From Rugosibacter aromaticivorans (GTDB lineage Bacteria; Pseudomonadota; Gammaproteobacteria; Burkholderiales; Rhodocyclaceae): a DNA stretch of 64,000 nucleotides. Positions 40,284-64,000 of this stretch are shown in pieces. Each line of letters begins with the position of its first letter. Position 1 is the stretch's first letter. The stretch spans positions 1,798,001 to 1,862,000 of the forward strand of contig NZ_CP010554.1 in the NCBI RefSeq assembly GCF_000934545.1. The letters run 5' to 3'. The position numbers and the translations under genes were made by a program. The notes under the pieces were generated by a model, which saw only the letters and a program-made list of their open reading frames with translations, did no database searches and was not told where the DNA came from.

Positions 40284-40907
40284 TTATTTGTCAATCTTTT
40301 GTACTTGCCAGTGGCCGCCTTTGTTCGGACCAACTCTAATCAGCCACCCTTCGCGTTTAAGCTTAGCGATTTGCTTTTCAATAGCGCGTGGCGTCACCCC
40401 AAACAGTTGAGCCAGTTCTTTTGCCGTCACATGCGGCTTGCGGGCTATCAGGTCAAGAATTTCTACCGAACTTTCTACCGAACTTTCTACCGAACTTTCT
40501 ATCGAACTTTCTACCGAACTTTCTATCGCAACTGCTGCCAATCCGCCTTTTTGTTGCGGCTCGCCATGGCTGCCAATCTGCTTGAAAGTTAGGTCTACGC
40601 CAGCACCTATTTCCCTGATTTCCAGGCTTACCTCTGGGTAGTCTCGCAGCGCTTTACGTATACGAATGAAGCCGCTGCCATATTTTTCGATATTGTTGGT
40701 CAGGTAAAAGGCTTCGGCTATCAATTTGTTGCGCAGGCTTGATTTGTAGTTATCGGTTTGAATGTCGGCTACGCTGATGCCGCCGTAAAAGATGCCGGGG
40801 CTAAAGACGGTAATGCTATCGTCAAAAATCTTGATCTGGATATCGTTGGGGTTGGTGTAACTGCGATGAACCACGGCATTGAGCAGTGCTTCGCGCAGGG
40901 CAGGCAA
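40284..40907 (-). pseudogene. ATP-binding RecG/AlbA_2-type regulator, C-terminal part
   Basis: 207 codons: LREALLNAVVHRSYTNPNDIQI and NIEKYGSGFIRIRKAL are the HATPase_c_4 half of Schlafen-AlbA_2-type proteins; a winged-helix end follows (HVTAKELAQLFGVTPRAIEKQIAKLKREGW). The N-terminal AlbA_2 DNA-binding half is missing and the frame abuts a MazF-type fragment. A Ser/Glu/Val repeat linker (six units of 12 bases) lies in the middle. It could still be translated from TTG 40907. Confidence 0.65.
40461..40532. repeat. 12-base tandem repeat (six units) in the AlbA_2-type gene
   Basis: Six head-to-tail copies of TTCTACCGAACT with C/T variants at one position, last unit degenerate. On the coding strand it spells E-S-S-V or E-S-S-I, a flexible linker. 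The unit is a multiple of three, so copy number changes keep the frame. Confidence 0.85.
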
Positions 40908-61634: not shown

Positions 61635-62864
61635 GTGGCTCACAAAAATAACAACAACCTGGATGCCGCTACCCTCGGCAAAATCGTTCTCGCCAGATTC
61701 CTGACCCTACCGCTCAAGACCTATGACCGTTGTGTAGCGAAAATCGAGTCTTCGCCGTATTTTTTGGCACTCAGTCCGTGGGTAAAACCGACCAATCTCC
61801 TCGATACCTCGGTCAGTTGCGAGACGGTTGGCAACCCGGCCTCATCGTCGCAAACGCTGGGAGAAATTCGCCTATCCGAGGGGCAGTCAACCTTTGTCTA
61901 CCACAAGCCAAGCTTTGTCCGGGAGTACCGGTTCGATGAAATCGAACTCAAGCGCCTGCGAAACTCCAACAGTCTCCCCAAGGAACTGACGGCCACACTC
62001 CACCGGCTGCGTCTCATCAACAGCCGTAACCGGCTCACCCATGGACTGATACAAGCGCTGCTCGACACCCAGGCATCCTATCTGATCTCGGGCGATCCGC
62101 TTTCGCTGGTACCGCTACCCCAGGCGCGAATGTCCAGGATGCTCACGGAGCGCAGTAATCTCCCCCTGGTCGCGGATGCAGGCCGCCTGTCTCGCCTCAT
62201 TCGCGGACTATCGTTCAAAATGACGGATGGAAGAACCCTGCCGTTGAACGTGCTGTTTCCCAACGATCGGCAACTTCATTGTCATCGAATTGATTTTCTG
62301 ATAAAAAGGGAAAAAACGCTGATCCTGGAAGGACATATAGCCCATCCGTTGTCCGACGACGCTATCGTCGCGTTTCTGTGGCAGCAATATGGGGTCTCTC
62401 TTTCGCGACGCTCGGTAGCGGCCATACGGCATCAATTGGCCATCCCATACTGGCGCCGCCGGGGCGAGCGCAAGGATTATCTGGTGGCTACCGAAGGATT
62501 CTCCCCGTTACTGCCCATGACGCCGCAGGCACTGTCCGCCTTTATGCCGCCACATCCTGGCGTGTATGAAATCCGGTCAGCGGCAAGTCTGGAAGATCGT
62601 ACCGTGGCTGACGGTCAATCGGTGTCCCCGGAGCGGACGCGTGTCGTCTACATTGGTTCGACGCGCGACCTGCGCAAGCGCCTGGGCGATCACCTGCGCG
62701 GAAGCAGTGATAACCCGCTGCTGTATCGCTGCATCGCCGAGGGCAACGCACGGGTGCGGTTTCGCCAAGTGAGCGACGGATGGCGCTGGGTAGAGCGGGA
62801 GTTGTACCGAGTGTTCTGCGAGACCTTCGGCGCGCCGCCGCCATGCAATCGGATGAGTCCATAG
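61635..62864 (+). CDS. RpoN C-terminal-like / GIY-YIG nuclease fusion protein
   Basis: 409 residues from GTG 61635. Residues about 125-275 resemble the core-to-C-terminal part of sigma-54: SRNRLTHGLIQALLDTQASYLISGDP resembles the RpoN helix before its HTH, and HPLSDDAIVAFLWQQYGVSLSRRSVAAIRHQLAIP follows the PLSD...I-RRTVAKYRE...GIP pattern of the RpoN box region. Residues 305-405 are a GIY-YIG domain: GVYEIR, VVYIGSTRDLRKRLGDHLR, the glutamate in ERELYRVF and the PPCNRMSP end. Sigma region I is absent. I know of no characterised protein with this order. A DNA-targeted nuclease that recognises -24/-12-like promoters is one reading (inference). Start codon not certain. Confidence 0.7.
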   Translation: MAHKNNNNLDAATLGKIVLARFLTLPLKTYDRCVAKIESSPYFLALSPWVKPTNLLDTSVSCETVGNPASSSQTLGEIRLSEGQSTFVYHKPSFVREYRFDEIELKRLRNSNSLPKELTATLHRLRLINSRNRLTHGLIQALLDTQASYLISGDPLSLVPLPQARMSRMLTERSNLPLVADAGRLSRLIRGLSFKMTDGRTLPLNVLFPNDRQLHCHRIDFLIKREKTLILEGHIAHPLSDDAIVAFLWQQYGVSLSRRSVAAIRHQLAIPYWRRRGERKDYLVATEGFSPLLPMTPQALSAFMPPHPGVYEIRSAASLEDRTVADGQSVSPERTRVVYIGSTRDLRKRLGDHLRGSSDNPLLYRCIAEGNARVRFRQVSDGWRWVERELYRVFCETFGAPPPCNRMSP

Positions 62865-62964: not shown

Positions 62965-63068
<104 letters not shown>

Positions 63069-63072
<4 letters not shown>

Positions 63073-64000
63073 AGCCGATCGGTGAAGCCGTCGAGGCCAT
63101 GATGGCCGTTCTGGGACTGGATGGAACAGCGGTCGCCACACGCAAGGCGTTTCTCGGTTTTTCGGACACGGATATCGATCACCTCCGGAAACTTCACGAA
63201 GCGCTTAAAGGGCTGGGATCGCAATTCGCCCAGAGCTTCTATGACCACATGCTGCGCTTTCCGGAGACGCGCCGCTTCATCCCGGACGACCAAACGCTGG
63301 AGCGCCTGAAGCAAACCCAGGCCGAGTACTTCGACACACTGACCGCCGGTGAATACGGCCCCGACTATATCCGCCACCGATTGCGTGTCGGAATCGCTCA
63401 CCAGCGCATTGGTTTGGAGACCCAGTGGTATCTCGGTGCCTATGCCAAGTATCTCGTCGATCTGCTGCCCGAGATCTGGCAACGGGTGGAAGACGATCAT
63501 GAACGGCTGCCTGCCCTCCAGTCTCTCCTCAAGATCGTCCTGCTGGATATGGGACTGGCGATCGACACCTATATCCACGCCGACCGGCAGGCCATTCTGG
63601 CGCTCAAGGAATACGCGGAACTGGTGTTTTCGGCCATTCCCGACGGGCTGGTCGTGCTGACCTCCGATTTCATCGTCCTTTCCGCGAACCGGGCATTTCT
63701 CAGGCGTTTCGATCTGACGGAGGCCGACATGCACGGCCGGCCTCTGCTGACGCTCATTGCCGCCGAAGGCCTCGAAGCCCGATTGACCGAGGTGCGCAGT
63801 TCAGGCACAGCCCAGCATGACCTGCCGTTCGAGATGGGACTGGCCACAGGCACGCTGCGCATGCCAGTGCGCGTTACCCTCACTGGCATTCGTCTTGCGG
63901 AAGAAGAAGAAGAAGAAGAAGAAGCCCGTTTGCTCATGATCGTGGAAGACATGACCGAGCAGGCCCGGTTGCAGCAGGCGCTCAAGGAGAGCGAGGCCAC
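63069..64000 (+). CDS. globin-coupled sensor with PAS domain (partial, continues past the window)
   Basis: Start ATG 63069, GAGGG and GGGAGGA upstream. Residues about 20-165 form a sensor globin: the GCS signature HRLRVGIAHQRIGLETQWYLGAYAKYL holds the proximal heme His111. A PAS domain follows from about 170 (ELVFSAIPDGLVVLTSDFIVLSANRAFLRRF) to about 300. An unusual run of eight Glu (from GAA repeats at 63900-63926) sits in the PAS domain. The C-terminal output, commonly GGDEF or a histidine kinase, is outside the window. Likely senses O2 or another gas. Confidence 0.85.

Follow-up and report, generated by a model that had tools for sequence, protein, structure and literature searches.

The window analysed here, a 64,000-nucleotide stretch of the Rugosibacter aromaticivorans genome (NZ_CP010554.1, positions 1,798,001 to 1,862,000), carries a gene whose product joins a sigma-54-type DNA-binding region to a GIY-YIG nuclease domain, followed by a c-di-GMP signalling gene. 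The same bipartite element, TGG-N8-TTGC, lies directly before two different microsatellites, one between the two genes and one inside the second. We think that the two genes, on balance, probably form a mobile cassette in which the nuclease reads the element and changes the repeat number of its effector. The linkage of nuclease, element and arrays suggests a dedicated machine that alters repeat length to switch or tune a signalling gene.

Architecture of the nuclease

The gene and its two domains are located as follows.

61635..62864, + strand: sigma-54 reader/GIY-YIG nuclease gene, 409 amino acids, GTG start
62010..62462, + strand: Sigma54_DBD region, residues 126-276, containing the HTH and the RpoN box
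62547..62855, + strand: GIY-YIG nuclease domain, residues ~305-407, with Y311, Y339, R349, E387 and N405

The original prediction held that an RpoN C-terminal-like region is joined here to a GIY-YIG domain, and sequence, predicted structure and conservation all confirm it. Profile match and predicted fold support both halves: the N-terminal part matches sigma-54 region III (HTH and RpoN box), and the C-terminal part has the fold, the family profile and the Y/Y/R/E/N residues of GIY-YIG enzymes, whose roles we presume from UvrC and I-TevI. The two-domain chain recurs elsewhere, as a profile scan detected both families in 60/60 homologues. Across these 60 proteins Y311, Y339 and R349 are invariant and E387 and N405 are kept in at least 90%, while the homologue alignment columns of S186, R187 and L188 in the HTH and of R258, R259 and R265 in the RpoN box are invariant.

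The protein resembles sigma-54 region III in its core-binding remnant, long helix, HTH, RpoN box and invariant S-R and R-R pairs. It differs from sigma-54 in having no region I by sequence, in being fused to a nuclease and in scoring far below the cut-off of the sigma-54 equivalog model (24.5 bits versus 277.35). With the GIY-YIG nucleases (UvrC N-terminal domain, R.Eco29kI and I-TevI type) it has the fold and catalytic set in common, but differs from them in its sigma-54-derived DNA reader.

Region I had been predicted to be missing, and at the level of sequence this stands: a Pfam scan of the 60 members gave no region I match and profile comparison gave none at the N terminus, so that region I has no sequence support in this part of the protein. 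The structural alignment tempers the claim, as the VIA-align match to sigma-54 begins already at nuclease residue 8, which it pairs with residue 11 of sigma-54. Residues 8-50 may thus form a hairpin like that of region I, for which the sequence gives no support.

An element and a GCAA array follow the nuclease gene

The region behind the nuclease stop contains two adjoining features.

62966..62980, + strand: bipartite element 1, TGGAAGAAACCTTGC, TGG-N8-TTGC with GG-N10-GC spacing, overlapping the proposed leader start ATG at 62965
62981..63018, + strand: microsatellite 1, (GCAA)9.5, from the tandem-repeat scan

This is the sole GCAA array of at least 4 copies in the 2.93-Mb genome. A chance repeat was ruled out by this uniqueness together with the confinement of the element-array pair to nuclease genomes (see below). 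A further tandem repeat in the window, at 40460-40533 (unit TTTCTACCGAAC, ~5.5 copies), is unlike the arrays studied here.

We compared 43 loci, comprising that of the window (L044), two on plasmids and 40 from genomes; five of the latter (L036, L037, L040, L042 and L043) end at most ~120 bases past the match, leaving 38 usable loci. TTGC(GCAA)n lies within 420 bp of the nuclease stop in 37 of the 38. In the exception, L041, the array is 2.5 kb from the nuclease on the opposite strand, and the locus is possibly a rearranged cassette. Its inverted element and GCAA array (L041:13775-13808) have no effector directly behind them and point towards a gene that by eye is of chemotaxis type, ~0.9 kb upstream of that gene.

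The TTGC before the array is given by the search pattern itself; the columns that it leaves free are nonetheless nearly fixed, with the first G in 37/37 loci, the second G in 35/37 and the T in 33/37. The GG-N10-GC spacing is exact in 35/37; in L033 and L034 the spacer between GG and GC is longer by one base. Conservation of the GG merely as part of a start codon was ruled out, because element 2 (below) is no start codon and because L011 (GAG) and L020 (TGG), which have no NTG at element 1, and L025, which has CTG, all keep the GG.

The first array has 3-9 copies in the 37 loci. Genome G107 carries GCAA arrays of 28 and 32 copies (contigs C9 and C30; L103 and L057), the former beside a nuclease remnant and the latter beside an intact gene, which rules out the idea that the array expands once the nuclease is dead. 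In L038 the nuclease is truncated and the array is still there with 6 copies. Array length thus does not track nuclease integrity. Three loci (L028, L031 and L039) have a second element and GCAA array ~2.3 kb beyond the first, before a second effector, which we note may be read as growth of the cassette by addition of array-led genes.

The same element precedes a second microsatellite inside the effector gene

63069..64000, + strand: effector gene, protoglobin-PAS-PAS-GGDEF-EAL sensor, 860 amino acids from this ATG, running past the window end (L044:11069-13651)
63884..63898, + strand: bipartite element 2, TGGCATTCGTCTTGC, within the effector gene
63900..63924, + strand: microsatellite 2, in-frame (GAA)8.3, encoding a glutamate run within the first PAS match

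The partner gene of the nuclease is usually a c-di-GMP sensor. Domain scans of nine downstream proteins found protoglobin-PAS-GGDEF-EAL in five, including that of the window, PilJ-HAMP-PAS-GGDEF-EAL in two, and GAF-PAS-GGDEF and a PilJ-HAMP-PAS histidine kinase in one each. L012 and L024 have the nuclease, the array and the PAS-GGDEF-EAL end in common, while the part between differs.

In the protoglobin class the in-frame (GAA)n sits ~0.9 kb further on, inside the effector. Among 30 GAA arrays of at least 5 copies, one of them hidden by N, GG-N8-TTGC stands directly before the array in all 29 that are readable, with a T before the GG in 27; its background in effector regions is 0.00076 per position, true elements included. 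The leucine codon over TTGC is CTT, in frame, in 29/29 cases, and CTT makes up 10% of the leucine codons in eight effectors.

The association holds from the side of the element and from that of the repeat. TGG-N8-TTGC occurs 18 times in the window (both strands), and only elements 1 and 2 have a microsatellite behind them. When each tract was taken once and both strands were tested, the element preceded 65 of the 67 tracts of at least 4 copies inside cassettes (N runs precede the remaining two) and none of the 4 outside; under a looser tract definition the figures were 68/78 inside and 0/29 outside (706 kb), the outside control being small in both counts (4 strict, 29 loose). Ten inside tracts are exceptions in the looser count: two follow N runs, L033 contributes its GCAA tract and a short GAA tract, L034 its GCAA tract and L012 an AGA tract, and the last four consist of other units. 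Neither the L033 GAA tract nor the L012 AGA tract has an exact element.

A spacing of GG-N10-GC is that of the -24 and -12 elements in sigma-54 promoters. The bases within the cassette element differ from what we take to be the consensus of those promoters, as no CAC follows the GG and no W the TTGC, which speaks against a promoter role. The main rival to our reading starts from this geometry: the locus would be an ordinary slippage-driven contingency locus, its arrays varying without an enzyme, and the protein would be a binding factor that uses the element otherwise, for example as a repressor or sigma-54 competitor at the effector promoter. In sigma-54 the RpoN box and HTH bind the -24 and -12 elements (PMC7057263, excerpt), and phase variation through simple sequence repeats (SSRs) at the start of genes is an established phenomenon (PMC2651432, excerpt). 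A promoter role, however, leaves unexplained why a second element lies deep in coding sequence, again before a different microsatellite, and enzyme-free slippage leaves the conservation of the catalytic residues unexplained; we consider this rival unlikely. Sigma-54 DNA distortion starts just downstream of -12 (PMC7057263, excerpt), and the cassette repeats begin at the matching place. Two different repeats behind one element, beside a nuclease with a matching reader, are most simply explained if the protein acts there and destabilises the repeat.

The original prediction that a -24-promoter-like reader would make this nuclease a site-directed DNA enzyme therefore gains support from a -24/-12-spaced element beside the gene and in its partner, where the protein would bind and cleave. 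Nothing was found in favour of an anti-sigma-54 factor, which had also been suggested. Of the roles proposed, that of a regulator fits best, provided that it acts through a change in the DNA. The earlier interpretation was in part borne out, and the microsatellites, the partner gene and their linkage had no place in it.

Linkage across genomes and mobility

An element followed by a GCAA array occurs at 7 places, distributed over 6 of the 399 genomes searched from the order, each time beside the nuclease or its remnant (7/7), and these are exactly the 6 genomes with a nuclease match above 300 bits in a profile search of the 399. Some match was seen in 218/399 genomes because true RpoN genes also match the profile, at ~22-35 bits among the matches listed. 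None of the 393 nuclease-free genomes has the element with a GCAA array, and hence no orphan target was found among them. The element with (GAA)4, a pattern that misses the TTGCA form present in L010 and similar loci, was found in 4/379 genomes, each a nuclease genome. Of 158 genomes in the family of G129, 13 hold 18 element-array places, every one on the same contig as a nuclease match; 14/158 have such a match, that of G525 being a fragment only, without array.

GCAA arrays as such are not nuclease-specific, a candidate explanation that we ruled out: arrays of at least 5 copies occur in 14/399 genomes, namely 5/6 nuclease genomes and 9/393 others. One array was read in each of these nine nuclease-free genomes (G394 has a second place), and none of those read is preceded by TTGC and the element, that of G114 beginning at the contig end; none of the nine genomes matches the element-array pattern. 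Arrays of 23 and 30 copies occur in nuclease-free genomes at G143:C45 (L091), without an element before it, and at G114:C36 (L104), the array at the contig end. A looser 24-base pattern gave 45 places in 35/158 genomes of the family of G129. Eighteen are the cassette element, 3 lie in genomes that have no nuclease match (G475, G496 and G573) and close with TTGC, and 24 are without TTGC, several by eye encoding a PAS-linker peptide.

The nuclease is present in 5/101 relatives, R. aromaticivorans included, and the cassette was found on two plasmids; this patchy presence and the plasmid copies point to horizontal spread. In pairs such as L010/L021, L017/L023, L029/L026 and L002/L003 homology begins close to the nuclease start and stops where the effector gene ends, limits that indicate a two-gene cassette; other locus pairs share longer stretches. 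The loci are related, L014 and L015 for example being almost identical to L002, so that they do not count as independent cases.

The same distribution would suit a homing-type selfish element, whose nuclease cuts alleles without the cassette so that repair copies the cassette in, and GIY-YIG homing enzymes are documented (PMC1564403, excerpt). We regard this as improbable, given that 0/393 nuclease-free genomes hold an orphan target and that a homing enzyme would not be expected to have two targets, each with its own kind of repeat, in the partner gene. A defence nuclease against foreign DNA, with the signalling gene as sensor or trigger, is more doubtful still and in our judgement very improbable: GIY-YIG nucleases do occur in restriction systems, R.Eco29kI is among the fold matches and the downstream flank contains island-like genes (named by eye), yet the cassette itself contains the conserved pairs of element and array, and the nuclease had no match in viral and phage collections. 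The ORFs of that flank, past the window end at L044:14398-19553, include by eye tyrosine-integrase-like, phage-antirepressor-like and two AbiE-part-like ones.

Repeat-length variation and the leader reading frame

L002, L014 and L015 differ over 11,231 aligned columns by one SNP, one GCAA unit and the number of GAA repeats (8, 14 and 13, respectively); the GCAA array has 5 copies in L002 versus 6 in the other two, and its flanks are identical at 1500/1500 bases. L028 and L039 likewise have 5 versus 6 GCAA copies, with 1137/1141 flanking bases equal. The GCAA and GAA tracts are thus the fast-changing places of the cassette, a statement about hypervariability as such and not about its cause. Polymerase slippage alone could vary the arrays, so that length variation is no proof of a role for the nuclease.

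With the SSR contingency loci of Haemophilus and Neisseria the cassette has in common a length-polymorphic tetranucleotide tract at the 5' end of a gene, its unit being no multiple of three and its copy number differing between near-identical copies. It differs from them by its nuclease gene, its fixed recognition-like element and its second in-frame tract with that same element.

63019..63068, + strand: leader/linker from array to effector, codon-like in relatives, with an in-frame TGA here

If translation starts at the leader NTG before the array, the repeat number n sets the frame that follows. The linker of the protoglobin-EAL class looks codon-like in the effector frame, with an excess of third-position changes: in seven linkers, difference rates at codon positions 1-3 of the effector frame are 0.28, 0.30 and 0.52, with 79 synonymous and 45 non-synonymous differences. 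That frame is open for 137 codons in L008, L009 and L013, where its stop overlaps the effector ATG. Another frame looks coding in the MNLS effector class (127 synonymous, 98 non-synonymous). In the window the linker frame is shut by the TGA, and the leader switch may be degenerate there. Among 39 arrays with an NTG, n modulo 3 is 0 in 18, 1 in 4 and 2 in 17 (the L005 array runs into N). Translation from the NTG would reach the K-P-D frame in 4/39, below the share expected if the three states of a switch were freely occupied. The GCAA array may plausibly act as a frame switch.

Proposed mechanism and significance

In the mechanism that we propose, the sigma-54-derived reader of the first gene product would recognise TGG-N8-TTGC and dock on it in the second, signalling gene, where the element occurs twice with a microsatellite directly downstream each time. 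The GIY-YIG domain would then nick or cut the adjoining DNA, and repair or slippage would leave a changed repeat number. A change in GCAA number would shift the leader reading frame and so act as a switch, and a change in GAA number would alter the length of the glutamate run and PAS loop and so act as tuning, with effects on expression and c-di-GMP. The full proposal, which we hold to be evenly balanced between right and wrong, is of a self-contained, site-directed microsatellite mutator whose sigma-54 head aims the nuclease, which creates, and keeps variable, any short repeat directly downstream of TGG-N8-TTGC and diversifies a c-di-GMP sensor by frame switching and loop length. Such a mutator would play for microsatellites the part that diversity-generating retroelements play for variable residues.

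The component parts are of known kinds. DNA-level switching of a c-di-GMP enzyme has a likeness in the invertible switches of C. difficile pdcB and pdcC (PMC9286219, excerpt), which work by site-specific recombination, whereas the cassette would work through repeat length. The terms "sigma" and "RpoN" are absent from the main text of the 2006 GIY-YIG superfamily survey in a term search (PMC1564403, excerpt). Open-access PMC full texts contain, among the matches listed, no report of a sigma-54/GIY-YIG fusion, of the fixed element or of a nuclease-linked microsatellite, and within that literature the fusion, the element and the two linked microsatellites appear new.

Bacterial microsatellite switching is generally treated as passive slippage. 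If our reading is right, a dedicated enzyme with its own element at two repeats would turn repeat mutation into something directed, and could provide a compact means of controlling repeat instability at a selected site. It would also reveal a new use for the sigma-54 DNA reader and show how c-di-GMP sensing varies in the environmental proteobacteria that carry it.
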